Source: a virus. From it: DNA of 38,437 nucleotides. A model generated the notes under the pieces. It was not told the DNA's origin. It made no database searches and was given only the letters and a program-made list of their open reading frames with translations. Made by a program: the position numbers and the translations under genes. This document shows positions 1 to 38,437 of the stretch, one piece after another; positions within the stretch are counted from its first letter, which is position 1, and the number at the start of each line of letters is the position of its first letter. Where the stretch lies: positions 1-38,437 of IMG/VR virus record IMGVR_UViG_3300032360_000025. One strand, given 5' to 3'.

Positions 1-162
1 GCCCTGTGCGAGTCCGGGGCCGGCGGATCAATCCTGTTTAACTTTAGCGAGGCCCGAAGAATGGCAGAAGAAAAAATTAAAGAAGAGATCGAGATCGAGG
101 AGGATCTGGACCTCAACGATGAGGATGTCGATGTCGATGTCGATGTTGACGAGGACGAGGGC
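1..162. repeat. Terminal overlap, left copy (matches 38276-38437)
   Basis: Bases 1-162 align without gaps to 38276-38437. Only positions 6, 24, 33 and 36 differ, and 37-162 are identical. The four differences are third codon positions of the gene that spans the junction (Leu, Gly, Ile, Leu) and all are silent. This is what a circular or circularly permuted genome gives when assembled from a mixed viral population. A true short direct terminal repeat is the alternative, but one ORF is open through both copies, which favours circular closure. Confidence 0.9.
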
Positions 163-777
163 GCGACCCTGGCAGAAGTCGCCGGGCTAATGCGCGAACT
201 GATGAAGCGCCTGGACGATGAGGAGGAAGAGATAATCGAGGATACCGAGGTCCGCGACAAGCGGAACGAGGATGTCCCCGTAGACATTGCCGCCAGCGAG
301 GGCAAGATGGCCGCCATGCTTTCCGAGCTTTCGGGCCGCGTGTCGGGGATCGAGTCCAACCAGCGCAAGGGTCGCCAGCGCCAGGCGCTGTCATCCTATG
401 TAGAAAAGAGCCTGGGCAAGCTGTCCGGGTACAACCTCCCCGACAGCCTGGGCGACACGATGACGAAGATGGCGCAGACCGCCGGGGGCAATTACAAGAA
501 GCTCCTGGATCAGTTTGTCTCCACCTTCAAGGCGACCGCCAGCCGGGATGAGGATCTCGCAACGCTCGACGACTTCGAGCAGTCCATCAGCATCGGCCAG
601 GGCGACGAGGCGCTGGCGAAGTTCGCCCAGAAGGGCGAGGCATCGCTGACCAACGCCCGGAAGCACCTGCGAACCTTCAAGAGCTTGCAGGATAAGGGTG
701 TCCGATTTGCGGATGGCGTTGACGATCCCGCCAACTTCATCGACATTTTGACCAACGAAACCAACACCGAAAACTGA
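1..777 (+). CDS. C-terminal part of the protease-scaffold fusion; scaffold domain
   Basis: This frame is open from base 1 and continues the reading frame that starts at 36602 and runs off the right end. Joined across the overlap the protein is about 816 residues. This part begins with a Glu/Asp-rich stretch containing a short Asp-Val repeat, followed by predicted helical, charged sequence to the stop. That composition fits a scaffold that fills the procapsid and is cut out by the protease. The ATG at 61 is in frame and has GAGG at 49-52, 8 nt upstream, so a separate 238-residue scaffold may be made from inside the gene, as Mu makes gpZ inside gpI and lambda makes Nu3 inside C. The scaffold role is inferred from position and composition. 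Confidence 0.8.
   Translation, partial: ALCESGAGGSILFNFSEARRMAEEKIKEEIEIEEDLDLNDEDVDVDVDVDEDEGATLAEVAGLMRELMKRLDDEEEEIIEDTEVRDKRNEDVPVDIAASEGKMAAMLSELSGRVSGIESNQRKGRQRQALSSYVEKSLGKLSGYNLPDSLGDTMTKMAQTAGGNYKKLLDQFVSTFKATASRDEDLATLDDFEQSISIGQGDEALAKFAQKGEASLTNARKHLRTFKSLQDKGVRFADGVDDPANFIDILTNETNTEN
49..63 (+). promoter_or_regulatory. Candidate internal ribosome binding site for a nested scaffold
   Basis: GAGG at 49-52 is followed by 8 nt and then an in-frame ATG at 61. The same arrangement is in the right-end copy (ATG at 38336). It sits after the protease domain and at the start of the acidic scaffold-like region, which is where nested scaffold genes begin in Mu and lambda. Confidence 0.45.
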
Positions 778-7801: not shown

Positions 7802-9262
7802 ATGGCAGCATCACCCCGAGAATTCAAAATTGAATACGACACCCCGGCGAAGATCGCGGCGGAAAATGGGACCGCATTTGCTATCGGATCGGACGCGACC
7901 GCGAGTTACATCACGACCTCGACGCGCCAGATTAACTCCAAGGATGGCCCGATCCGCATCGAGAGATCCTGGGACTCGTTCAGCCTGGAATTCTCCTTCG
8001 TCATCGTGTCATCGACCGCTGCGGCCTTTTCAACCGAGGTGGACACGGTCGAGGAGGCGCTGCGGACACCGTACAACCGCCTCAGAGTAACGATGGCGGG
8101 CCAGGTCCAGTACGACTTCGACCCCTCGACCGCTTCGGGCTTCGACATCATGCCGACCATCACGAAGGCGGGCGACCCGACGACCGACTCCGCGCTGTCG
8201 AGAAGCTACCGGGTCCGCTTCGAGGTCGGCCTGCCCGCTGACCTGCGCGGAACCGACAGCGGGGCGATGGGCCTGCGCTCCTCAACTGTGGACATCTCCT
8301 ATACCCCGGCCAGGCGGCGCACCGTAACCATCACGGGCGTTTATACAGGAGTCACGGCGGAGGTCGATGCGCGTACACAGTACGAGGCGCAGATCGACAC
8401 CTACGCAAACGCGGTCCTGGCGGCCATCGACTCCGGGGCAGAGTTCGAGCTTACCGAGGAGCCGCGCAGCGAGATAGAGGACACCGATTTAAGCGGGATC
8501 GGGATGGGCCGTGTCATCAATTTCACCCGCATATTTAAGGAGATCATTTACAGCCAGGCGGGATCTTCAAACGACAATACAAACATCGTCGATCAGGAGT
8601 TCCGCATCACGCGCCGCCGCGAAGCGCCGGGGGATTCGGTCGTCGGAGGTTATAAGCCCCTGCGCCTGGTGATCGCCGACATCTCGTACTCCGCATGGAT
8701 CGACAAGGAAAAGACCCAGGATCTTAAAGGCGAATGGGCCGACACGATCCGGGCCTGGGTAATCTCACAGACTAAGGACACCCTGGCGAAGTACATCAAG
8801 GGCGGCATCGCCATCGTCGCGGAGGCCGTGACGTTCGAGTGGGATGACAATCGCATCAGCGCGACGATGACCGCGCAGGCCCTGGCGAAGATGTCGATGA
8901 TCGTTGAGCGCCGATATACATCGGATGTGGCGATCAATCCCGGCGTGGTCCTGGTCCCTGTCTGGAGTGGGGATGCCTATGCAAAGTACCAGTACAACGG
9001 CCCGGCGACTAAAACCGTGACAGTAACCGACATCCTGCGCGTCGAGGGCGGGCAGATGCCCCCCGCGAATATGGCCGAAGCTCCGCCCGGCTTCGAGGGC
9101 GCGGTCCTGATCTCGTCCAGGGAGGCAAAAACCCCCCTCACGATGGGGATGGACGCGGACAACCAGATCAGCGTCGATGAGTATTCGGCATCAAAGGTGT
9201 TTGAGGTATTCAACGAGCCAGCGGGCGGCGGCGCGGCCTCGCTTTCGGGCCTGACAAATTAA
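7802..9262 (+). CDS. Large tail structural protein, unknown family
   Basis: A 486-residue beta-rich acidic protein with no signal peptide or membrane segment. It shows long alternating strands (RSWDSFSLEFSFVIVSS, RRTVTITGVYTGVTAEV) and a repeated pattern of Asp/Thr/Val. It is placed between the short tape-measure-like protein and the 777-residue baseplate-type protein, so a distal tail or baseplate component is likely. No specific family is recognised. The start follows a 5-nt gap after the previous stop. Confidence 0.65.
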   Translation: MAASPREFKIEYDTPAKIAAENGTAFAIGSDATASYITTSTRQINSKDGPIRIERSWDSFSLEFSFVIVSSTAAAFSTEVDTVEEALRTPYNRLRVTMAGQVQYDFDPSTASGFDIMPTITKAGDPTTDSALSRSYRVRFEVGLPADLRGTDSGAMGLRSSTVDISYTPARRRTVTITGVYTGVTAEVDARTQYEAQIDTYANAVLAAIDSGAEFELTEEPRSEIEDTDLSGIGMGRVINFTRIFKEIIYSQAGSSNDNTNIVDQEFRITRRREAPGDSVVGGYKPLRLVIADISYSAWIDKEKTQDLKGEWADTIRAWVISQTKDTLAKYIKGGIAIVAEAVTFEWDDNRISATMTAQALAKMSMIVERRYTSDVAINPGVVLVPVWSGDAYAKYQYNGPATKTVTVTDILRVEGGQMPPANMAEAPPGFEGAVLISSREAKTPLTMGMDADNQISVDEYSASKVFEVFNEPAGGGAASLSGLTN

Positions 9263-18001: not shown

Positions 18002-18030
18002 AGTTTAAGGTCTAACGGTTAACAATGCAA
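18002..18030 (-). promoter_or_regulatory. Leftward promoter for the zinc-ribbon gene
   Basis: On the minus strand: TTGCAT (18030-18025), a 17-nt spacer and TAAACT (18007-18002), followed by 7 nt and an ATG at 17994. The spacer includes the 11-mer GTTAACCGTTA. The GTTAGnnnTTAAACT-N7-ATG arrangement matches the one before the rightward gene at 18419. Confidence 0.5.
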
Positions 18031-19628: not shown

Positions 19629-19657
19629 TTGTACGTTAAACAGGGGCGGGGTAATAT
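19629..19657 (+). promoter_or_regulatory. Early promoter for the small-gene operon
   Basis: TTGTAC (19629-19634), a 17-nt spacer and TAATAT (19652-19657). The -10 and the downstream GGCATGGAAAG are repeated at the leftward promoter near 35895, so the two are likely co-regulated. It drives the run of overlapping genes from 19709. Confidence 0.75.
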
Positions 19658-19682
19658 ATGGGCATGGAAAGCAGAAACACGG

Positions 19683-19708
19683 CAACCACAGAAGGAAGGA
19701 ACGGAACG
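19683..19708 (+). repeat. Repeated translation leader, copy 1
   Basis: CAACCACAGAAGGAAGGAAC followed by GGAACG and the ATG at 19709. Near copies lie before genes at 20031 (+), 33034 (+, internal), 35592 (-) and 35846 (-). It includes the Shine-Dalgarno-like GGAAGGA. Confidence 0.85.
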
Positions 19709-19969
19709 ATGAACGACGACACCATCCGAATTTTTAACGGCGATGGCGACGAGGTCCACGCGGAGAGCGCCAAGTCCACCGCCCGAAGGTCCAGCACCAG
19801 GGGCAAAGCGCATCAGGTCCAGTTAATCGCGGCCCTGCGGCGGCTTTTCCCGACTCCTCAAAAGGGAGTACACGCAAGGCTGAACGGTTCGACCTTCGAC
19901 CATCGGGGCGCTTGGGTCGGCTTCGTGTCTAAAATGAGCGCCGACAACCCGCTGGGGGTTGGCTGGTAA
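19709..19969 (+). CDS. Unknown early protein, first of the small-gene operon
   Basis: An 86-residue protein starting right after the repeated leader; the open frame further upstream is just the leader and promoter read through. It has an acidic N terminus, then a basic Ser/Thr/Arg stretch (KSTARRSSTRGKAHQ), a helix (QLIAALRRLF) and a C-terminal globular part. No family is recognised. It is expressed from the TTGTAC/TAATAT promoter and is probably early. Confidence 0.7.
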   Translation: MNDDTIRIFNGDGDEVHAESAKSTARRSSTRGKAHQVQLIAALRRLFPTPQKGVHARLNGSTFDHRGAWVGFVSKMSADNPLGVGW

Positions 19970-19998: not shown

Positions 19999-20030
19999 CA
20001 ACCACAACCACAGAAGGAAGGAACGGAACG
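19999..20030 (+). repeat. Repeated translation leader, copy 2
   Basis: CAACCACAACCACAGAAGGA followed by AGGAACGGAACG and the ATG at 20031. It matches copy 1 from CAACCACAG to the ATG exactly. No promoter is obvious directly upstream, so this copy probably acts at the RNA level. Confidence 0.85.
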
Positions 20031-20216
20031 ATGAACGAAGCATATAAAAAGTTCAGGCGCGAATCAGGGATGGCGAGGTTCGAGAACGGATGCCGCCTCG
20101 TCATGGAGGATGGCATCCTCAAGAAAGCCTGGCGCGTCCCAGGGACGAGGGAGGCCGGGGTCTGGAATATGTACTGCGCCGAGTACAGGCGGAGCCAGCG
20201 GAAGGCGACAGCATGA
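20031..20216 (+). CDS. Small early protein sharing a domain with the 20434 gene
   Basis: A 61-residue protein after the repeated leader. Nearly its whole length aligns with the first 55 residues of the gene at 20434: YKKFRRESGMARFENGCRLV here and YRQFRRESGMASFEKGCRLV there, then KKAWRVPGT against VKAWRLAGT. This is a single small domain with conserved Arg, Trp and Cys, present twice in the genome by duplication. It may bind nucleic acid, but that is a guess. The stop overlaps the next start (ATGA). Confidence 0.75.
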   Translation: MNEAYKKFRRESGMARFENGCRLVMEDGILKKAWRVPGTREAGVWNMYCAEYRRSQRKATA

Positions 20217-21600: not shown

Positions 21601-21629
21601 TTGACGGCGGGGGCGTTAACCGTTATAGT
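21601..21629 (+). promoter_or_regulatory. Strong promoter for the SNF2 helicase operon
   Basis: TTGACG (21601-21606), a 17-nt spacer and TATAGT (21624-21629). The ATG follows after only 12 nt, leaving a leader of about 5 nt with no ribosome binding site. The spacer contains the 11-mer GTTAACCGTTA (21615-21625), which runs into the -10 and could be an operator. Confidence 0.8.
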
Positions 21630-21641
21630 GCGCCCCCGCAA

Positions 21642-27239: not shown

Positions 27240-28892
27240 ATGGGCGAAAAGAAAGAAATCGGCGGCGAGTTTCGCGTCTTTGGGCCGCCAGGGACTGGCA
27301 AGACTTACTACCTTACAAAACAGACCGAAAGCGCCCTCAGAAAATACACGCCTTCGGACCTTCTGATCGTGTCTTTTACAAAGGCTGCGGCGCATGAGAT
27401 AGCGACCAGGACCGCAGCCCCGGGAATGGATAAACGGGTCGGGACGCTTCACTCGTTTTGCTTTCGCGCCCTGGGCCAGCCTGAACTCGCGGAAACCCCG
27501 GCCCGCATCAAGGAGTGGAATAAGCACATCAAAACCAAGATCCCAACCCTGATGATTAAAGAGAAGGGGGAAGGGGATGACCCGATAGCGCAATCCATCA
27601 GCGGGAAACCGATGGCGGCTTATCACCTGTTGAGATCCCGGATGGTCCCGCGTGAACAATGGCCTGAACAGGCGAGGACGGCGGCCACGGCCTGGGAGGA
27701 ATGGAAAGAGGGCAACGACTGGATGGATTTTACCGACCTGATCGAGCAATCCCTGGAGGACGTAGGCGCAGCGCCCGGGCATCCCGCTGTCGGGTTCTTC
27801 GACGAGGTGCAGGACTTTTCAACCCTGGAGCTTGAACTGGTCCGCAAGTGGGGTAAGTCCATGCGGCAGACTGTGATGGCAGGGGACGACGACCAGAGCA
27901 TCTACGGGTTCCGGGGCGCAACCCCGGACGCTTTCCTGGAACCGGACATCCCGGAGGATAGAAAGAAATTCTTGCGGGAAAGCTACCGGCTGCCCTCAGT
28001 CGTCAAGGATTACGCGGACAGATGGATCAGCCAGGTTAGGACAAGACAGGCGAAGGAATACAAGCCCAGGCGGGAGGGCGGCAGCGTCAATCTGGCGCGG
28101 AACATGGGATACAGGAGGCCCGAACGGGTGCTGGCGAGTATCTGCGGGGATCTCGACAAAGGCCAGGATGTGATGGTTCTCGCCTCCTGCGCGTATATGC
28201 TTACGCCCCTCCTGTCTATTCTAAGGAAGGAGGGCATCCCCTTTCATAATCCCTACAGGCGCAAGGACGGGCGATGGAACCCCATCCATCCCCATAAGGG
28301 GGCGGCCTTCCGCTTGTCTAACTACCTCCGACCCGACCCTGGAACCTGGGAAGATCCCCGCCTGTGGACATGGGGGGAGCTATGGCGATGGGTGGAGATC
28401 CTGAACGTGAAAACGACAGGGATGCCCAAGGGGTCAAAAACCCTCATCAAAAAAATCATCAAGAACGAGAGCGCGGCCCAGGAGGTGATAAACCTGGACC
28501 TGATCGCAGACCTGCTGATGGGTTCCGACATGGAAGCGGCCCAGCGCCTGGTCGCTCAAATCGAGGGCGGGGGCGTGGACTTTTTCCGCGATCATATTCT
28601 GGACTCGCATCACAACGGGGCGCTGAAAATGGCCCTGGCTGTGCAGCACAGGCGAGGGGGGCGCGCCTTGCGAGAGACTCCCCGCCTATGTGTCGGGACC
28701 ATCCATAGCGTCAAAGGCGGCGCGGCGGATTCGGTGTATTTATTCCCCGACTTGAGCCTGGAAGGAGAACGCCAGGGGCAGCACGACCCGGACAGCTTGA
28801 CCCGGCTTTTCTATGTCGGAATGACCAGGGCGCGGGATAAGGTAACCCTTTGCGGGGCCGAGACTGGCCGGGCGATTCGGTGGATACATTGA
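27240..28892 (+). CDS. UvrD/Rep-like superfamily 1 helicase
   Basis: A 550-residue helicase. Motif I GPPGTGKT is at residues 15-22; motif Ia is LIVSFTKAAAHEIATR; motif II is FDEVQDFS (DEVQD, the usual DExQ form); motif III is GDDDQSIYGFRGA. Then follow the motif V/VI region AVQHRRGG, IHSVKGGAADSVYL, and motif VI LFYVGMTRARDKV. All are characteristic of UvrD/Rep enzymes that unwind DNA 3' to 5'. It is shorter than UvrD itself (about 720 residues), typical of phage forms. The start at 27240 is favoured because the conserved part begins there; an upstream in-frame ATG at 27162 lies in the iteron-like region. It ends at a combined hairpin and promoter. Confidence 0.9.
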   Translation: MGEKKEIGGEFRVFGPPGTGKTYYLTKQTESALRKYTPSDLLIVSFTKAAAHEIATRTAAPGMDKRVGTLHSFCFRALGQPELAETPARIKEWNKHIKTKIPTLMIKEKGEGDDPIAQSISGKPMAAYHLLRSRMVPREQWPEQARTAATAWEEWKEGNDWMDFTDLIEQSLEDVGAAPGHPAVGFFDEVQDFSTLELELVRKWGKSMRQTVMAGDDDQSIYGFRGATPDAFLEPDIPEDRKKFLRESYRLPSVVKDYADRWISQVRTRQAKEYKPRREGGSVNLARNMGYRRPERVLASICGDLDKGQDVMVLASCAYMLTPLLSILRKEGIPFHNPYRRKDGRWNPIHPHKGAAFRLSNYLRPDPGTWEDPRLWTWGELWRWVEILNVKTTGMPKGSKTLIKKIIKNESAAQEVINLDLIADLLMGSDMEAAQRLVAQIEGGGVDFFRDHILDSHHNGALKMALAVQHRRGGRALRETPRLCVGTIHSVKGGAADSVYLFPDLSLEGERQGQHDPDSLTRLFYVGMTRARDKVTLCGAETGRAIRWIH

Positions 28893-28917
28893 CGGCCCCG
28901 CCTGTCGGGGTTATTCT
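28889..28917 (+). promoter_or_regulatory. Probable late promoter overlapping a hairpin
   Basis: TTGACG (28889-28894, including the helicase stop), a 17-nt spacer and TATTCT (28912-28917). Inside the spacer CCCCG (28896-28900) pairs with CGGGG (28906-28910), followed by a T-rich stretch, so the same bases could also stop upstream transcription. A leader of about 35 nt leads to the first late gene. The TTGACGG start is shared with promoters at 21601 and 32960. Confidence 0.55.
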
Positions 28918-28957
28918 TTCGGCAACGATCAACACCTAAAACCAGAAGGACAAAACG

Positions 28958-30128: not shown

Positions 30129-31572
30129 ACGCCTGATGGACATCGCCACGGGCAAGACCCAGCGGCTGATCGTGTCGATGCCGCCGGGCCATGGCAAGTC
30201 AACCCTGGTGAGTCATTACGGCATCGTCTGGATGCTGGGCCGCTTCCCCGAGCTTTCCGTCCTGCTCACCAGCTACGAGGCGAACTTCGCGGCGGGCTGG
30301 GGTCGCCAATGCCGGGACACCCTGGCGATGTACGGCCCCCAGGTGTTCGGGGTCCAGCCTGACCCGCGAGTCAGCCGGGCCGACTGGTGGCAGGTCCAAG
30401 GGACCAAGGGAAAGATGCTGACCGCTGGTTCCGGGGGCGCGATCACGGGCAAGCGCTTCGATGTCTGTGTTTGCGATGATTTGGTCCGCAACTCATCCGA
30501 TGCGATGTCGCCGACCCTGCGCGATAAGCAGTTCGACTGGTTCGCCTCCACGCTATACACCCGCCTCGAACCCGGCGGACGAGTCATCATCGTCATGACG
30601 CGCTGGCATGAGGACGATATCGCGGGCCGCCTGATCGCCGAGGCCCGGGACGGCGGCGAACCCTGGGAAGTCATCAACCTGCCCGCCCTGGCCGGGGACG
30701 ACGACCCGCTGGACCGCAAGCCCGGCGCGGCGCTATGGCCTGAACGATACAGCGCCGAAGCCCTGGAGCGTACTCGCGGGGTCGTCGGGTCGTATTGGTT
30801 TAATGCGATGTACCAGGGGCGACCCACAGCGCCCGGGGGCGAGGTCTTGAAGTCCGAATGGTTCAGGTACTGGCGATGGGCGGACCCCGGGGAGACGACC
30901 ATCGAGCTTCGCGGCGGGGGAGTGGCGCACGATGTCCCGGCGGACGCTGGCCTGATCTTCCAGACTATCGACCTGGCGGCCAGCTTGAAGTCGAGCGCAG
31001 ATTACAGCGTGATACAAACATGGATGAGAATACGCCTAGACAAAATGGACCATTTTTTGATGCTTGACCAGGTGAGGCGCAGAATGGACGGCCCGGACCT
31101 CATCGCAACTGTCGAGGCCGGGGTCGCTAAGTGGAAGCCCCGCATCGTCGGGGTCGAATCGTCCGGGTTTCAGCTTGCGATCTGCCAGATGCTCAAGAAA
31201 AAGGGCATCCCCGTCCGCGAGGTGCGCCCAGACCGCGACAAACTGAGCCGCGCCCTGGCCGCAACACCCGCGATGGAAGCGGGCCGCGTGTGGTTCCCGG
31301 CTGTCGCCCCCTGGCGCGCCGATCTTGAGGCGGAATTATTGGCATTTCCGAACGCAGCCCACGACGACATGGTCGATTGCCTCAGTATGGCGATTGGGGG
31401 CTTTGTGAAACTTCCATCATCGACATTCACCGCCGCACCCGTTAATATCTCAACTATACCCGTCCACAGGAGGGCATCGCGAATCCTAGATATAGCGAAG
31501 CCCTCCGACTTTGGCGGGCAGCCTTCGACAATCAAGGAATCAGATGGCGGCGTGTACATGGAGGAAGATTAG
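29965..31572 (+). CDS. Terminase large subunit
   Basis: A 535-residue packaging motor. ATPase: Walker A MPPGHGKST (residues 72-80), Walker B-type VCVCDDLV with DD at 171-172, and the coupling motif VIIVMTRWHEDD (207-218). Nuclease: acidic residues at IDLA (Asp 336), VES (Glu 398) and HDDMVD (Asp 466-471), the RNaseH-like set. The N-terminal TRSEWLRLAAETPAGLAM and APHLRLL segment before Walker A is usual in this family, so the start at 29965 within the small-subunit gene is probably real; ATG at 30073 is an alternative, still overlapping. It works with the portal encoded immediately downstream. Confidence 0.95.
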   Translation: METSTPLSSTTPESAPDTLTRSEWLRLAAETPAGLAMLCTNNRWMMAPHLRLLTERLMDIATGKTQRLIVSMPPGHGKSTLVSHYGIVWMLGRFPELSVLLTSYEANFAAGWGRQCRDTLAMYGPQVFGVQPDPRVSRADWWQVQGTKGKMLTAGSGGAITGKRFDVCVCDDLVRNSSDAMSPTLRDKQFDWFASTLYTRLEPGGRVIIVMTRWHEDDIAGRLIAEARDGGEPWEVINLPALAGDDDPLDRKPGAALWPERYSAEALERTRGVVGSYWFNAMYQGRPTAPGGEVLKSEWFRYWRWADPGETTIELRGGGVAHDVPADAGLIFQTIDLAASLKSSADYSVIQTWMRIRLDKMDHFLMLDQVRRRMDGPDLIATVEAGVAKWKPRIVGVESSGFQLAICQMLKKKGIPVREVRPDRDKLSRALAATPAMEAGRVWFPAVAPWRADLEAELLAFPNAAHDDMVDCLSMAIGGFVKLPSSTFTAAPVNISTIPVHRRASRILDIAKPSDFGGQPSTIKESDGGVYMEED

Positions 31573-33795
31573 ATGACCGTGATGCTGACCGGCACATCCC
31601 CGAACTCGGAACTCTACAGCCGCGCCCTGTCGAACGCCTATCGCTGGTATTACCGCCTGATCGATCCCGACTGGTCTATCGAACAAGACCCGGAGATCTG
31701 GATCAAGAAGGCCTGGCGCGACCCGGTGCTGGCGCAGGCCATGCAGACACGGATGCACATGGTAGCGGGCCGCGAGTGGCAGATCCAGCCAGGCCGCAAG
31801 AACCCCAGCCCGGAAGATACCAGGGCGGCGGACGTAGTGGCCGATGCCTTCTCCCGCATCGCCAAGTTCAGCGAGGCCCGCGCCCTGCTTGCAACATCCG
31901 TCCTGCGTGGCTCCGCGTACGCCTTCACCGAGGGAACCCGCGAGACTGTAACCCTGGCGGGCCTCCGTGGTAATTGGTGGACCCCACGGAAATTGCGAAA
32001 TATATCAAAACAGCGATTTATTTACACGCCCGAAACGATCACGCACGAAGATGGCCGCCAGTCCATCGAGGTGCAAACAAGGTTCTACCCCCTCATGGAC
32101 CCGTGGCCCGTGGTCGTCCCCCCGGAGTTCGCCGAACGGCTCATCAAGGTGATCTATTTAGACGAGGAGGACAGGCTTACAGGCATCGGCGGGCGGCCAC
32201 TTTTGGAAAGTTGTTATTTTTGCTTCTGGGCCCGCGCCGAAATTCTCAAAAGTGGCCTCCAGACAATTGAGAAATGGGCGGGCGGCCTCCTGATTGGCAA
32301 GACCGATTTAAACGCGAACCCCGGCGAACTGGGCCGCGACTCCGACAGCGTGAGAAACTCGATGCTCGACATGCTCGAATCCATGCGTGGCCGTCATGTA
32401 GGGGTCATCGACAAGGAGGACGAAGTGACCCACATCGATGGCGGCCAGGGCGGAAGCGGCGCGGCGTTCCTGGAGTTCCTCCGATACATGGATGAAAAAA
32501 TCGTCGGCCTGCTCCTGGGGTCTGTCTTACCGTTCGGGGTCCAGGGCGGCGATGGTTCGGGATCTTATGCTAGGGCTGTAGAAGAATCTGAGACTTCGCG
32601 GATGATACTCGATTTTGACAAACAGAACATTAGCGAGGCCATCAGCGATACCGTCATCCGTCTGTTCTGGAAAAACAACCGCCCGCAGCTTGCAGCGGCT
32701 GGCCTGGCGGACGCGGCGATGCCGAAATTCGCCATCCTGCCCGAACGCCGCGACGACTTCGCGGCAAACGCGCAGATCTTAAGCCAGGCCATAAACAGCG
32801 GGATGAAGATCAAAACCAGCGAAGCGTTCGAGAAGCTGGGCCTGACCCAGCCAACGCAGGAGGAGATCGACGCGGGCGAGGTGATCGAGAAGGAGGAGCC
32901 AGCGGGCGGCGGCTTCCCGTTCCGCGAGTCCCCCGGCGCGAAGTTCGGCGACGATCCCCTTGACGGTGTAACGGTAAACGGCTACAATTCCCCCAGGTTA
33001 GATGACACAACCACAACCGAAGGGAGAACAGAGATGGAAAAGTTCGCGGCCAGTAAAAAGAAGAAAAGCGACATCGACCGACTGATCCCCGACTCGCTGG
33101 ACGAGGACGAGCGCCAGAAGGTACGGGACACGATGCAGGGCATGATCGACAGCGGGCATCTGACCATCGACCTGCCGGGCGCAGCGCCTGAACAGGACGA
33201 TGCCGAAGAAGGCGATGAAATTGATTCAGGCGATGCCCTGGCGCGTCTGGACGCTGGCGCGGAAGCCGCCGATGATGCCTATTCAGCATACACCGAGGGG
33301 CGAACCATCGGAGACTTTGACGGATCGGCGGAGAGCTTCGCCCGTGGAGTCGCCATATACGATGAGGCCGTCAAGGAGGCCGCGAACGATCCGGGCATCA
33401 GCAAGGGGCTGCTGCAAGACCACCAGGCATCGATGGATGGATACGCCCCACAGGTCGAGATCGTAAAAGCGGGCGGCTACCTGAAAGCCGAAACCTACCC
33501 GGACGGGCGGCTGTATACCCCCGAAATGCACGAACTGCAGATGGGGATAAGAGATGCGGACGATGCAGCCTGGCGCGCCGAGAGGGACGGAGACAAGGAG
33601 GGGGCCGAAAAAGCCCAGGCCACGCTCGACAGCCTGAGCGCCGCCGCAAGCGAGATGGCGGACAAGATGCACAAAGACGAGGCCGGGGGAAAGAAGAAGG
33701 CGGCCAGCAAGGACAAGCCCGGCGGCAAGCGTAAGAGATGCCCGAAAGGGCAGCATAAAAATAAAAAAAGTGGAGCCTGCGAACCGAAGAAATGA
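31573..33795 (+). CDS. Portal protein, Mu gp29-like, with long C-terminal extension
   Basis: A 740-residue protein. Residues about 1-450 have the Mu gp29/DUF935 portal pattern: YRWYYRLIDPDWSIEQDPEIW near the start, then AMQTRMHMVAGREWQIQPG, a FYPLMDPWPVVVPPEF segment and an FLRYMDEKIVGLLLGSVLP helix. The dodecameric portal forms the DNA channel. Normal family length is about 450-530, so the last 253 residues are extra: Lys-rich start (FAASKKKKSDIDRL), acidic helices, and a closing KRKRCPKG...SGAC two-cysteine motif also found in the protease. A promoter-like sequence and the repeated leader stand before an in-frame ATG at 33034 (residue 488), so this part may also be made alone. GAGGAAG lies before the ATG at 31573. 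Confidence 0.9.
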   Translation: MTVMLTGTSPNSELYSRALSNAYRWYYRLIDPDWSIEQDPEIWIKKAWRDPVLAQAMQTRMHMVAGREWQIQPGRKNPSPEDTRAADVVADAFSRIAKFSEARALLATSVLRGSAYAFTEGTRETVTLAGLRGNWWTPRKLRNISKQRFIYTPETITHEDGRQSIEVQTRFYPLMDPWPVVVPPEFAERLIKVIYLDEEDRLTGIGGRPLLESCYFCFWARAEILKSGLQTIEKWAGGLLIGKTDLNANPGELGRDSDSVRNSMLDMLESMRGRHVGVIDKEDEVTHIDGGQGGSGAAFLEFLRYMDEKIVGLLLGSVLPFGVQGGDGSGSYARAVEESETSRMILDFDKQNISEAISDTVIRLFWKNNRPQLAAAGLADAAMPKFAILPERRDDFAANAQILSQAINSGMKIKTSEAFEKLGLTQPTQEEIDAGEVIEKEEPAGGGFPFRESPGAKFGDDPLDGVTVNGYNSPRLDDTTTTEGRTEMEKFAASKKKKSDIDRLIPDSLDEDERQKVRDTMQGMIDSGHLTIDLPGAAPEQDDAEEGDEIDSGDALARLDAGAEAADDAYSAYTEGRTIGDFDGSAESFARGVAIYDEAVKEAANDPGISKGLLQDHQASMDGYAPQVEIVKAGGYLKAETYPDGRLYTPEMHELQMGIRDADDAAWRAERDGDKEGAEKAQATLDSLSAAASEMADKMHKDEAGGKKKAASKDKPGGKRKRCPKGQHKNKKSGACEPKK
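32960..32988 (+). promoter_or_regulatory. Promoter inside the portal gene
   Basis: TTGACG (32960-32965), a 17-nt spacer and TACAAT (32983-32988), matching sigma-70 consensus at 5 of 6 positions in each box. Transcription would start about 40 nt before the in-frame ATG at 33034. It would drive the portal C-terminal region and the downstream lipoprotein, holin-like and gpF-like genes. Confidence 0.75.
33008..33036 (+). repeat. Repeated translation leader, internal copy in the portal gene
   Basis: CAACCACAACCGAAGGGAGA, then ACAGAG and ATG (33034-33036), in frame with the portal. It resembles the leaders at 19683 and 19999 but here it also encodes portal residues. With the promoter at 32960 it marks a probable second start. 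Confidence 0.7.
33034..33795 (+). CDS. Possible nested product: portal C-terminal region
   Basis: 253 residues in the portal frame from the ATG at residue 488. It has an N-terminal basic segment, an acidic middle, alpha-helical segments rich in Ala/Glu/Asp, and a C-terminal basic tail with the two-cysteine KRKRCPKG motif. Its own promoter and ribosome binding leader suggest separate synthesis. It may be a former stand-alone scaffold-like gene that became joined to the portal gene by loss of a stop, or an in-frame product as in other nested head genes. Function unknown. Confidence 0.5.
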   Translation: MEKFAASKKKKSDIDRLIPDSLDEDERQKVRDTMQGMIDSGHLTIDLPGAAPEQDDAEEGDEIDSGDALARLDAGAEAADDAYSAYTEGRTIGDFDGSAESFARGVAIYDEAVKEAANDPGISKGLLQDHQASMDGYAPQVEIVKAGGYLKAETYPDGRLYTPEMHELQMGIRDADDAAWRAERDGDKEGAEKAQATLDSLSAAASEMADKMHKDEAGGKKKAASKDKPGGKRKRCPKGQHKNKKSGACEPKK

Positions 33796-34040
33796 AGCGG
33801 ACCATCCCCCTGTTATTCCTGGCCGTGATGGCGACCTCCTGCGCGTCCCTTTTCGAGAAGGGACCGGACGGCGAGGCAGCGCCCATCGAGGCGTTCGCGC
33901 AGCCAGCCATCGAAACCCTGGCCGAACATGCCCCGGCGAACCCGACGAACGGGGGCGCGTGGATCATCGCAGGCGTGGCGGCCCTGGCCGCTGGCGCGTC
34001 CGCCGTGGCATCGAGCGCCGCAAACCGTGAGGAGTCATAA
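33792..34040 (+). CDS. Small lipoprotein, possible outer spanin or envelope protein
   Basis: An 82-residue protein overlapping the portal gene by 4 nt (ATGA). Residues 1-17 (MKRTIPLLFLAVMATSC) form a lipoprotein signal with Cys 17, though the box (A-T-S-C) is not ideal. The middle is acidic and Ala/Pro-rich, and residues about 55-76 (AWIIAGVAALAAGASAVASSAA) are a second hydrophobic segment. It could pair with a coiled-coil inner spanin such as the product of 14232, but spanin genes are usually adjacent, so this is tentative. A virion or superinfection-exclusion lipoprotein is the alternative. Confidence 0.6.
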   Translation: MKRTIPLLFLAVMATSCASLFEKGPDGEAAPIEAFAQPAIETLAEHAPANPTNGGAWIIAGVAALAAGASAVASSAANREES

Positions 34041-34042
34041 TC

Positions 34043-34246
34043 ATGTCTACATTATTTGAAGCCCTGGGCGGGCGCAAAAATACGCTTGTCCTTTTCGCCC
34101 TGGGTTCCGTAACCCTGATGACAGCCCTGGGCCATCTCCCTGTGGATCGTTTCATCGAGAGCCTGACCTGGCTCCTGGGCATCGGCGTTGGCGGCCATGC
34201 CATTGTCGGCGCGGCTGGCAAGCTGGGCGACAAGAAGAAGAAATAA
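34043..34246 (+). CDS. Two-helix membrane protein, holin-like
   Basis: A 67-residue protein with GAGGAG before the ATG. Two hydrophobic helices (NTLVLFALGSVTLMTALGHL and LTWLLGIGVGGHAIVGAAGK) are separated by a short charged turn, and the C terminus is KKKK. Two helices with a basic C-terminal tail is the usual class II holin layout. It sits next to a lipoprotein in the middle of the head genes. No endolysin gene is adjacent, so the role is tentative. Confidence 0.55.
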   Translation: MSTLFEALGGRKNTLVLFALGSVTLMTALGHLPVDRFIESLTWLLGIGVGGHAIVGAAGKLGDKKKK

Positions 34247-34248
34247 CG

Positions 34249-35265
34249 ATGGCGCGCCAGCTTCCATTGTCGCCGAACGTCGAGATGTACGAGATGATGC
34301 ATCACTCGACGGCGCTCTTTAACGAGGCGATGCTGGCGCTCATCAAGGCCGAGTTTCTGCTGCAGACCGGGCGCGGCTCCTGGGATCAGCGGGAGGGCGC
34401 GGTCGATGCCCTGGCGGAGCTTGTAGGGCATACGATGACGCTGTCGGACCTTACAGGCCGCCGCCGTGTGTTCCTGAACACCGCCCGGGAGCCAGCGCCG
34501 CCCGCGATGGCCCCTACGATGTTTGCAGACAGCCCGATTGACCGCATCGCCAAGGCCGCCGGGCCTGTCGATCCCGGCCTCGACTTCGTGGAGGCGATCC
34601 GCGACATCGTCAACCGGACCCCACAGCTTGCCGAGGACGTAGCGCCCGGCGTTCCGCGCTACCTGGCGGTACAAGATATTTACATGGACGGCCCGAACTT
34701 CGCCCTCGCGAAAGCGAACAGCCTGGAGGTAACGCAGCGCGTCCAGAAGGCCATCGCCGATGGCATCGAAAAGGGCGTACCCGTAACGGAAACGCGGGAC
34801 ATCATCGCAGAGACTGGGGACTGGTCAAAGGCATACGGGCAAGTCGTGTACAGGACGAACTTAAATACAGCCTACACCGAGGGGCGCTTCCAACAGCTAA
34901 AAGACCCCGTGATCCGCCGCATCGTCGGCGCGTTCGAGTTCTCATCGATCAACGACAACGACACCAGGACGAACCATAAAAAATGCGATGGCCTCATCGC
35001 CGCCGTGGACTCGCCCATCTGGAATGTCTACAAGACCCCCATCGGGTACAACTGCCGATGCGATGTGGTGGAAGTTACCCGGTCGATGCTGGAGCGCCTG
35101 GACCTCATACAGCCGAACGGGGCCATCCGGTCGCGCTGGCGCGGCACGACCTACGACAGCGACACGGCGATGATGGCCGCGATGCGAAGCGCCGGGGCCA
35201 TCCCTGATCCCAAGTTCGGGCGAGGCGGCGGCCCGAACCCCTACGCGGGCCGCGTGATCCCATAA
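34249..35265 (+). CDS. Head morphogenesis protein, Mu gpF-like
   Basis: A 338-residue protein. The N-terminal half is helical (residues about 15-190). The C-terminal half carries the Mu gpF minor head protein signature: YRTNLNTAYTEGRFQQL, a DNDTRTNHKKCDG segment with conserved Asp-x-Arg-Thr and His, and PIGYNCRCDVVEV with paired Cys (residues about 205-285). Proteins of this family help assemble the head around the portal and stay in the virion in small numbers. The gene follows the portal, as in Mu. It is followed directly by a leftward terminator, so rightward late transcription meets a converging unit here. Confidence 0.9.
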   Translation: MARQLPLSPNVEMYEMMHHSTALFNEAMLALIKAEFLLQTGRGSWDQREGAVDALAELVGHTMTLSDLTGRRRVFLNTAREPAPPAMAPTMFADSPIDRIAKAAGPVDPGLDFVEAIRDIVNRTPQLAEDVAPGVPRYLAVQDIYMDGPNFALAKANSLEVTQRVQKAIADGIEKGVPVTETRDIIAETGDWSKAYGQVVYRTNLNTAYTEGRFQQLKDPVIRRIVGAFEFSSINDNDTRTNHKKCDGLIAAVDSPIWNVYKTPIGYNCRCDVVEVTRSMLERLDLIQPNGAIRSRWRGTTYDSDTAMMAAMRSAGAIPDPKFGRGGGPNPYAGRVIP

Positions 35266-35295
35266 AAAAACGCGCCAGGCTCAAGGCCCGGCGCG
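35264..35295 (-). terminator. Terminator of the leftward small-gene unit
   Basis: A 10-bp stem with one A-C mismatch (35271-35280 with 35286-35295) and a preceding A-tract on the plus strand, so leftward RNA ends in a hairpin then U7. It is nearly the same sequence as the hairpin at 14519-14543. Confidence 0.75.
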
Positions 35296-35313
35296 CTGTC
35301 GTGGCGGCGTTGG

Positions 35314-35592
35314 TTACTTCGCGGCGGCGATGGCATCGTCAAGCTGCGCCCAGGTTCCCATATCCACCCACAGCGCCGAACCATCATCCCATGTCTCCAG
35401 GTTCCAGCGCAAGCCCTCGACGGCGTAAGATTCGCATCGTTCGCTGATGCGGTGGCGCGGCTCCGATGCTCCGGGGCGATAGCCCAGCCAGATGGCGCGC
35501 CCCTCGAAAAGCTCATCGCCCTTGCACCAACTGATGGCCGTGATCCTTGCATCTTTGATGGCCTGGTTGTTATATCCTCGCGCAATCTTCAT
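35314..35592 (-). CDS. Unknown small leftward protein
   Basis: A 92-residue protein preceded by the repeated leader (minus-strand CAACCACTCGGAAGGAGAAC then GGAACG-ATG). It is Trp-rich (AISWCKG, AIWLGYRPG, LRWNLETWDDGSALWVDMG) with a compact alpha/beta look. No family recognised. Placed inside the head module on the opposite strand, with leader and promoter of early type, it is probably an early accessory gene inserted there. Confidence 0.65.
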   Translation of the reverse strand: MKIARGYNNQAIKDARITAISWCKGDELFEGRAIWLGYRPGASEPRHRISERCESYAVEGLRWNLETWDDGSALWVDMGTWAQLDDAIAAAK

Positions 35593-35618
35593 CGTTCCGT
35601 TCTCCTTCCGAGTGGTTG
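35593..35618 (-). repeat. Repeated translation leader, minus-strand copy
   Basis: Read on the minus strand: CAACCACTCGGAAGGAGAAC, then GGAACG and the ATG at 35592. It shares the last 17 bases almost exactly with the leaders at 19683 and 19999. Confidence 0.8.
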
Positions 35619-35645
35619 AAAATGCCCAGGGCCGAAGCCCTGGGC
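35619..35645 (-). terminator. UUCG-loop hairpin between two leftward genes
   Basis: A 9-bp perfect stem (35624-35632 with 35637-35645) closed on the minus strand by a UUCG tetraloop, then ATTTTC. This is a stable terminator after the 35846 gene. Leakage would feed the next gene, which has its own leader. Confidence 0.75.
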
Positions 35646-35657
35646 TGTGAGTGGTGG

Positions 35658-35846
35658 TTATCCTTCGCCGCCTTGCTTCGCGTTCAGTTCCTCCGCTTTT
35701 GCCGTGGCCTCATGTTCAGTATCAAAAGCCATTTCGTGAATGTTTTCATCCTCAATGCCGACATACCAGAGGACATCGTAGCTTCCGTCCCTATGGCTAT
35801 CTCCTACGGTTCCCCAACTGACTACATACTTTGCTGCTTCGCTCAT
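35658..35846 (-). CDS. Unknown small early protein
   Basis: A 62-residue protein. The start at 35846 is chosen because the upstream part of the open frame is the repeated leader itself, and GGAG/AAGG precede this ATG. The protein is acidic and compact (KYVVSWGTVGDSHRDG, YDVLWYVGIEDENIHEM, then a helix FDTEHEATAKAEELNAK). No family is known to me. It uses a promoter and leader nearly copied from those of the 19709 gene, so both are probably expressed together. Confidence 0.65.
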   Translation of the reverse strand: MSEAAKYVVSWGTVGDSHRDGSYDVLWYVGIEDENIHEMAFDTEHEATAKAEELNAKQGGEG

Positions 35847-35878
35847 CCTTCTGTCTCCTTCCGTGGTTGTGGTTGCCG
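35847..35878 (-). repeat. Repeated translation leader, minus-strand copy 2
   Basis: On the minus strand: GGCAACCACAACCACGGAAG, then GAGACAGAAGG and the ATG at 35846. It is preceded by GGCATGGAAAG as at 19661, showing that promoter and leader were duplicated together. Confidence 0.8.
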
Positions 35879-35894
35879 TTCTTTCCATGCCTAT

Positions 35895-35923
35895 ATATTA
35901 CCCGATCCACCCGTTAACCGTTA
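35895..35923 (-). promoter_or_regulatory. Leftward early promoter with GTTAACCGTTA element
   Basis: On the minus strand the -10 is TAATAT (35900-35895), followed by ATAGGCATGGAAAG as at 19652-19671. At -35 distance the DNA is TAACGGTTAAC (35923-35913), the 11-mer that also lies in the promoters at 18013 and 21615. The -35 itself is not consensus. Confidence 0.6.
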
Positions 35924-35936
35924 AACAAAAACAGGT

Positions 35937-36566: not shown

Positions 36567-36595
36567 TAGACAAGTTACAGATGCGGGCGTATTTT
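36567..36595 (+). promoter_or_regulatory. Promoter of the protease-scaffold gene
   Basis: TAGACA (36567-36572), a 17-nt spacer and TATTTT (36590-36595). The ATG follows 6 nt later with no ribosome binding site, which points to a leaderless mRNA and supports the start at 36602. Confidence 0.6.
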
Positions 36596-36601
36596 AAAAC
36601 C

Positions 36602-38437
36602 ATGAGAAAAATATTGCAACTTTTCAGGCGGCGCAAGGCATCGGCGAAGTTCGCGGGCGGGGTAAGGATGCCCGTTAATGATCGGCCATCTAAAAAAGGA
36701 CCGACTGGCGGCGGGTTTCCTGGCTCTATTATCTCCGGGGCTGGCGGACTGGCTGGCACATCTAAGGAACTGACGCAGGCCGCCGCTGATCTTTATAACA
36801 ACTATGATGCGGGCGACCCTGGAGTCGATGAGCAGATGGATGACATCTCCCTCGCCATCGAGAACTTCACCATCGAGGCAGAAAAGGCAGGCATCGACCC
36901 TGGCAGGATGGCGGGGTCGGTGGAGGACTTCACGAAGTACCACGGCGAGGGCGACAACGATGCCGCCCTCGATGCGTTGCAGACTGTCAATAAAACTATG
37001 GATCGCCACATCGAGCAGGCGGGCGGGATGCCCGTAGATTTCAGCAAGATGCAGCGAGAGGTCGCGGACAAGGTATATGATGCGCGCCGCGACAGCGACC
37101 AGGGCGGCGGCGAGGACGCGGCGCGGGATGCCGTAAAAGAAGCCCTCGAAAATCGCATCCTGCATTACGACTCGCCGGTTTCATCTAAGGAGGACCACGA
37201 AAGAACCAAGATGGAACTAGGGGATGCCCTTAGAGAGTACAGAAAAGAAAAGGGGGGCGGCCCATACGATGAGATGGTCCTGTCGGCCGTCGATATGTGG
37301 ACGGACCCCGATGAAAGAGAAAACAGGGACAGGGTGCGGGATGCCCTAAAAGACGAAGAAGAAGGCGGCGGCGAACGCAAAGCCCCCGACGACGAACCCA
37401 GCGGCCCCCGGAAGCGATGCCCGAAGGGGAGCAGGAAAGACGACAGCGGGACTTGCCAGAAATACTCCGAGGCCGAGGCGACCGACCCGGCCCCGAAAAA
37501 GAAAACCCTGCGCGAACGCCTGGGAGCCAAGAAGAAATGCGACAGCGGATGCCCGGACGACAACGATGGCCGCCAGGCCAAGCAGTTCAAGGCGCCCCCA
37601 GGCCGTGAGGCGCAGGTAAAAGCCCTGAAAAAAGAAGATGTAGAGAACCCCTACGCCGTGGCCTGGTCGAGCTACGATGCGAAGAACTCCGAAAGCTACG
37701 CGCCCATCTGTTTCAGCGATAATCAGCTACCCGGCGGCGACTTCGACGCGGTGCAGAACGAGGATGGAACCTGGAACATCGGCATCGACAAGGACATCCC
37801 GATAATGGGGACGGTCCAGGAGGTCGGGGTCAAGGGCAACGAGCGCCCCATCGGGATAAAATGGCTGCGGGCGGCCCTGCGGAAGCATCGCGCCCTGGAG
37901 GAGCAACCCGGCGGCGCGTATTATGCCCCGGTCCACCTGCGCCATCACAGTGAGAACAGCGACCACGATGAAACCGTCCCCGCCGGGTTCCTGCGACTGA
38001 ACCGCATCGCCCCGGCGTTCGACGGAGGCGACAACCAGGCCGCCATCTTTGCGACCCTGTACAACGTCCCCGATGAAATTTACCAGCAGATCAAGGCCCG
38101 GAAATGGGCGTTTCGATCCGTGGAGGTCGCATCCTGGGACAAGCCCCAGGTGTCGTCGCTGTCTTTACTGAACACCGAAGCGCCTTTTTTCAAATATCCA
38201 AATTTGACCATCGGCAACGAAACCCCAGCCGTAGCCGTGAACGTATTACCATTAGAAGCCGCCGCGCCAGCCCTCGCCCTCTGCGAGTCCGGGGCCGGTG
38301 GATCAATTCTTTTTAACTTTAGCGAGGCCCGAAGAATGGCAGAAGAAAAAATTAAAGAAGAGATCGAGATCGAGGAGGATCTGGACCTCAACGATGAGGA
38401 TGTCGATGTCGATGTCGATGTTGACGAGGACGAGGGC
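36602..38437 (+). CDS. Head maturation protease fused to scaffold, 5' part (continues at base 1)
   Basis: 612 codons are open to the window end and continue in frame at base 1; the whole protein is about 816 residues. Residues about 1-270 are a polar acidic N-terminal region. A two-cysteine motif (GPRKRCPKG...SGTC, Cys near 273) is also present at the portal C terminus, and a KKKCDSGCPD pair follows. Residues about 360-550 are a Mu gpI-type protease domain: KWLRAALRKH, YYAPVHLRHH with candidate catalytic His (residues 445-449), then AFRSVEVASW with the probable nucleophile Ser 506, and LSLLNTEAPFFKYPNL. It processes the procapsid. The start at 36602 fits a leaderless promoter; ATG at 36668 with a GGGG upstream is an alternative. 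Confidence 0.85.
   Translation, partial: MRKILQLFRRRKASAKFAGGVRMPVNDRPSKKGPTGGGFPGSIISGAGGLAGTSKELTQAAADLYNNYDAGDPGVDEQMDDISLAIENFTIEAEKAGIDPGRMAGSVEDFTKYHGEGDNDAALDALQTVNKTMDRHIEQAGGMPVDFSKMQREVADKVYDARRDSDQGGGEDAARDAVKEALENRILHYDSPVSSKEDHERTKMELGDALREYRKEKGGGPYDEMVLSAVDMWTDPDERENRDRVRDALKDEEEGGGERKAPDDEPSGPRKRCPKGSRKDDSGTCQKYSEAEATDPAPKKKTLRERLGAKKKCDSGCPDDNDGRQAKQFKAPPGREAQVKALKKEDVENPYAVAWSSYDAKNSESYAPICFSDNQLPGGDFDAVQNEDGTWNIGIDKDIPIMGTVQEVGVKGNERPIGIKWLRAALRKHRALEEQPGGAYYAPVHLRHHSENSDHDETVPAGFLRLNRIAPAFDGGDNQAAIFATLYNVPDEIYQQIKARKWAFRSVEVASWDKPQVSSLSLLNTEAPFFKYPNLTIGNETPAVAVNVLPLEAAAPALALCESGAGGSILFNFSEARRMAEEKIKEEIEIEEDLDLNDEDVDVDVDVDEDEG
38276..38437. repeat. Terminal overlap, right copy
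   Basis: Matches 1-162 with four silent differences (38281, 38299, 38308, 38311). The reading frame of the protease-scaffold gene is identical in both copies. Confidence 0.9.

Follow-up and report, generated by a model that had tools for sequence, protein, structure and literature searches.

Portal proteins belong to the most conserved components of phages, and in the known portal structures the C-terminus generally faces the capsid interior. Phage Mu has nested head genes (I and Z): an internal start in the same frame yields a protein that consists of the C-terminal part alone. Accessory genes with their own promoter and terminator are known in phages as morons, and T4-type mobile regulatory cassettes, reportedly treated by Arbiol et al. 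in 2010 (as cited in PMC3797505), are said to be repeated promoter units that are thought to mediate the shuffling of phage genes. The T4 internal proteins Ip1-Ip3 and those of T-even relatives are head-interior proteins that vary between related phages and have a short signal sequence in common; known examples are injected proteins that block type IV restriction enzymes (PMC12373910). In the MuF polymorphic toxins of temperate phages, a head protein encoded beside the portal is extended at its C-terminus by variable sequence (PMC5576092). In our literature search, no paper was found on start signals located inside a portal gene.

Such signals are found in the phage genome analyzed here, a metagenome assembly of 38,437 nucleotides (IMG/VR record IMGVR_UViG_3300032360_000025, referred to as the window). 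The features of the locus and of related sites in the window are as follows.

31573-33795, plus strand: portal ORF of 740 residues, in which the in-frame ATG at 33034 is codon 488
31573-32949, plus strand: conserved Mu-type portal part, residues 1-459, matching the Portal_Mu profile and 90-92% identical in amino acids to relatives
32950-33033, plus strand: insert, codons 460-487 (promoter-like, operator-like and leader elements), with no nucleotide similarity to relatives
32960-32988, plus strand: promoter-like TTGACG-N17-TACAAT, read directly, 10 of 12 positions matching
32966-32981, plus strand: operator-like GTGTAACGGTAAACGG in the promoter spacer, a 16-mer with other matches in the window
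33007-33033, plus strand: leader ACAACCACAACCGAAGGGAGAACAGAG with the Shine-Dalgarno sequence GGGAG (33022-33026), 7 nt before ATG 33034
33034-33795, plus strand: hypervariable portal module of 253 codons, in-frame ATG to stop, for which no relative and no family was found
33040-33049, plus strand: module start box AAGTTCGCGG (K-F-A), in the clade at module starts only
33730-33780, plus strand: module end motif RKRCPKGQHKNKKSGAC, a predicted beta-hairpin
36581-38437, continuing at 1-777, plus strand: second gene that carries a module of this kind, with its box at 36647 and its end motif at 37409; by position a putative protease-scaffold gene
35847-35926, minus strand: regulatory cassette in its usual setting (operator-like element, promoter-like TAATAT, leader, small gene at ATG 35846)
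19630-19708, plus strand: related promoter-leader before ATG 19709, with a similar inverted copy at another locus (8338-8428 of relative L005)

By analogy, the portal module seems to work most like a mixture of T4 internal proteins, MuF toxins, and morons or T4 regulatory cassettes. The T4 internal proteins come from separate genes with an N-terminal signal, whereas the modules here are fused to the portal or to the second gene and have a motif in common at the C-terminus; no N-terminal capsid-targeting sequence of the T4 type was found, and what recurs from module to module is the KFA joint and the RKRCP motif at the C-terminus. In contrast with the MuF toxins, the extension is on the portal and another gene, not on MuF (338 residues), and no toxin domain was found. 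The unit at 35926-35269 on the minus strand is moron-like, with a terminator, promoter-like site, leader, small genes and terminator, and the portal element resembles its start, but the portal module continues the reading frame of an essential gene and has no terminator of its own, as no plus-strand terminator-like site is found at 33795-35265. Unlike the T4-type cassettes, to which the likeness is drawn from description and not from homology, the unit here lies inside a coding frame, and unlike Mu I/Z, there is also a promoter and the gene is the portal. Because no defining feature set is fully matched, the module was assigned to none of the T4 internal proteins, the MuF toxins and the morons or cassettes.

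Membership of the conserved part in the Mu-type portals is clear from a profile match over the portal core. Pfam Portal_Mu (PF06074) matches residues 47-424 of 740 (E 6.5e-40) and is followed to its full profile end, and conservation among close relatives stops near residue 459. A preliminary description of this DNA, which let the portal family end near residue 488, was roughly right. Relatives were collected from IMG/VR using the portal (L003-L007), the terminase (L009-L012) and the end motif (L053 and L054), where L006, L008 and L055 are one contig and L007 and L056 another. Since the portals of L005 and L006 are the same, the five contigs obtained by the portal give four distinct relative portals. 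No further relatives were found in cellular genomes, and none that were new by a MuF search.

When window positions 31401-34400 were compared with the relatives by BLASTN, matching blocks were found at 31401-32950 (84-88%) and 33804-34400 (91-96%), and 32951-33803 showed nucleotide similarity to no relative (L004 ends before the second block). One open frame spans the gap in every relative, giving portals of 882 residues in L003, 679 in L005/L006 and 670 in L007, and in L004 the frame is open up to the contig end. Because the flanks match, the gap is unrelated and the frames are open in each relative, the last third of the portal has been replaced wholesale, and the portal end is hypervariable. 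A stop between the two portal parts, for which the preliminary description proposed to look in relatives, occurs in none of the five contigs, all of which are fusions (L004 as far as its contig reaches). Since the relative portals are also fusions (complete ones of 670-882 residues), what took place is an exchange of modules within a gene that was modular already. Of the earlier proposal that two genes fused and left old signals behind, the signals stand, but a unique fusion of a normal portal with its neighbor is ruled out, as the relatives are likewise fusions, with unrelated modules. Replacement of this kind between relatives with 84-95% identity in the flanking DNA points to strong selection on the fused part, for example on a counter-defence protein.

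The two module-bearing genes have the same module boundaries. With 0.13 occurrences expected, the window has two copies of the 10-mer AAGTTCGCGG, at 33040 and 36647, and in the relatives it is seen solely at module starts. In the portal it follows immediately after ATG-GAA at 33034. The C-terminal motif reads RKRCPxGxxK..GxC, and is sometimes followed by KFAE or KYSE and another module (portal of L003; second gene of L008 and L053). Between these ends, every module body is acidic and free of Cys, and when BLAST was used with composition correction and masking, modules matched one another at the ends only, with the exception of related second-gene modules in L003/L053 and L005/L006. Homology of the portal modules to the second-gene modules was dropped as a candidate, since uncorrected BLAST gave E values down to 1e-18 but only the ends were left after correction and masking. 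No known domain was found for the portal module in Pfam, PHROGs, phage records or a PDB fold search, and no module at all has a Pfam or PHROG match. In the searched collections, the module of this genome is carried by no relative, module relatives being few in number. A single-sequence AlphaFold2 model predicts helices and a terminal hairpin, and with a mean pLDDT of 70 and a pTM of 0.34 it supports no fold assignment. The RKRCP motif presumably resembles the basic two-Cys adaptor domain of chlorella viruses; Pfam gave no match of the motif to that domain at E up to 10, a weak test with very short queries.

The start signals inside the portal gene can be read directly, as had been described: TTGACG (32960-32965) and TACAAT (32983-32988) are separated by a 17-nt spacer, and the leader leads to the in-frame ATG 33034 (residue 488), 45 nt past TACAAT, with 253 residues remaining. 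Among the clade, the signals are found in this genome only. They are located directly before the module start box, as is seen when the portal module start in the window (ATGGAAAAGTTCGCGG) is compared with the internal joint of L003 (TGTGAAAAGTTCGCGG). The promoter match alone is only suggestive, since an equally good match is found in 5% of codon-shuffled portal ORFs. The 28 insert codons are unusual, with a GC3 of 0.54 (mean 0.77) and a codon adaptation of 0.49 (mean 0.69), each at about the 4th percentile, and this atypical content fits a non-coding origin.

The spacer element GTGTAACGGTAAACGG is two mismatches from the 16-mer GTTTAACGGTTAACGG, a level that was not reached in 300 shuffles, whether of the segment or of the complete portal ORF. 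At up to three mismatches, GTTTAACGGTTAACGG has five matches in the window against 0.14 expected. It is perfect at 35911-35926, within the minus-strand cassette ahead of the accessory-gene unit, and has three mismatches at 21613, within another TTGACG-N17-TATAGT site, and at 18003 and 18010, where two matches overlap. From its placement, we infer that the 16-mer may be an operator. More copies of the operator-like TAACGGTTAACGG are seen at 18003-18025 and 21601-21641, and the copy at 21601 lies inside a promoter-like site that a strong inverted repeat overlaps.

The leader is a true repeat, with 34 identical nt at 19683 and 20005, before ATG 19709 and ATG 20031, and related leaders precede ATG 35846 and ATG 35592 in the window and ATG 8342 in L005 (all on the minus strand). 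Local alignments to four members of the family were used to rank 2735 start codons, and ATG 33034, scored on its preceding 45 nt, came right behind the family's own loci. The copy at 35926-35847 on the minus strand has the usual setting, in which a terminator-like hairpin, the operator-like element, a -10-like TAATAT, the leader, two small genes and a terminator follow in order. The whole moron-like unit (35269-35926, minus strand; ATG 35846 and ATG 35592) is opposite in orientation to the head operon, missing from L003 and replaced in L005. The portal copy is similar to this cassette, with the operator-like element, promoter, leader and ATG in the order of the clade's moron units, although the spacing differs. 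It is a diverged member, in which the leader is similar and the stretch between the -10 and the leader is different, and this counts against the explanation favored below. Cassette scans for more relatives gave L005 and L055 only. The operator-like element, the leader family and the low-GC3 insert thus uphold the part of the preliminary description by which this site received start signals typical of the phage itself.

On balance, and with moderate confidence, we favor the explanation that the hypervariable portal module came in as an entire gene together with its regulatory cassette and can probably still yield a free protein as well. The module would arrive with a promoter containing the operator-like element, a leader with a Shine-Dalgarno sequence and an ATG, signals resembling the cassette that this phage family uses before small accessory genes. 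Recombination near the module joint would place this gene in frame behind the conserved portal, so that the portal would be made as a 740-residue fusion. Acquisition as a gene is likely. Because the -35, -10, Shine-Dalgarno and ATG are intact, a free protein is possible in principle, and judged from these signals, the chances that ATG 33034 is presently used for a free 253-residue product (~27 kDa) besides the fusion are about even. A free-standing module gene, which was not found in IMG/VR by the end-motif scan, would have favored this explanation, and its absence there counts against it, as does the lack of this module in every relative. If the explanation is true, a free product of ~27 kDa and module peptides in virions are predicted, and the start signals capture one moment in the possible movement of such modules. 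As portal C-termini generally face the capsid interior, the modules could ride inside the head, and may possibly be proteins held there and delivered with the DNA. An injected or counter-defence role is suggested by analogy with the T4 internal proteins (PMC12373910) and P1 DarB (PMC9024508).

The main rival to present use is a pure relic, in which the start signals of a former separate gene were captured in frame, the stretch is now a mere portal linker, and nothing starts there. The fusions of the relatives do well without an internal start and the signals are unique to this genome, as a relic would have it, but the -35, the -10, the Shine-Dalgarno sequence at its 7-nt spacing and the ATG are all intact, and we regard this reading as somewhat unlikely. 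Use of the internal promoter mainly for the downstream genes (33792 onward), with an incidental in-frame ATG, is improbable: ATGA at 33792 combines the start of the following gene with the portal stop, and the search for a plus-strand terminator from 33795 to 35265 gave none, but the relatives express the same downstream genes without such an element, and the leader and Shine-Dalgarno sequence are positioned for ATG 33034. Chance occurrence of promoter-like and leader-like stretches in ordinary coding sequence, for which the 5% of shuffled ORF copies with an equally good promoter could be cited, is very improbable and was rejected on the joint evidence of the 16-mer, codon content, leader ranking and shuffles, since the operator-like element, leader family match, module box and codons in the bottom ~4% all fall at one place, which strengthens the earlier judgment against chance.

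The boundaries common to the portal and the second gene suggest a plug-in arrangement. The second gene encodes 823 residues and is split over the record ends, where 158 of 162 bases are identical between 1-162 and 38276-38437; because the ends overlap, the genome is circular or terminally redundant. From its position between the MuF and capsid genes, it is putatively a protease-scaffold gene, but Pfam, PHROG, NCBIfam and PDB searches gave no match, and its structure model is unusable (pLDDT 34). Its module is likewise hypervariable, and in L008 and L053 it has two modules in tandem. The motif K(F/Y/L)(A/S)E is seen at module joints, for example at residues 463-466 and 652-655 of the L003 portal, and recalls head-protease cleavage sites, analogues being those of T4 gp21 and SPN3US with the motif AXE (PMC7411985). 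There are 22 such sites in the head proteins of the window and relatives, with relatives counted repeatedly, and none in 13 other window proteins. Since relatives were counted repeatedly and the capsid protein has no such site, cleavage there by a head protease is speculation by analogy. As a tentative proposal that we consider unlikely in its full form, acidic Cys-free modules of head-borne proteins, bounded by the 10-bp start box and by a two-Cys hairpin at the C-terminus, may be plugged singly or in tandem into the portal and the second gene and possibly freed by a head protease at K(F/Y/L)(A/S)E, and a module with its own cassette would be made both fused and free.

Two further observations were made on start signals in the window. 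First, the leader can often be read in frame as TTTTEGR before the ATG (19658-19709, 20000-20031 and 35846-35890, the last on the minus strand), and such leaders sometimes have an in-frame upstream ATG, by which some N-termini could be extended. Second, a TTGAC-N17-TATTCT site at 28889-28957 overlaps both the stop codon of the helicase gene and a hairpin followed by or containing a T-run, is conserved in L005, L007 and L009-L012, and may act as a promoter, as a terminator or in both ways.
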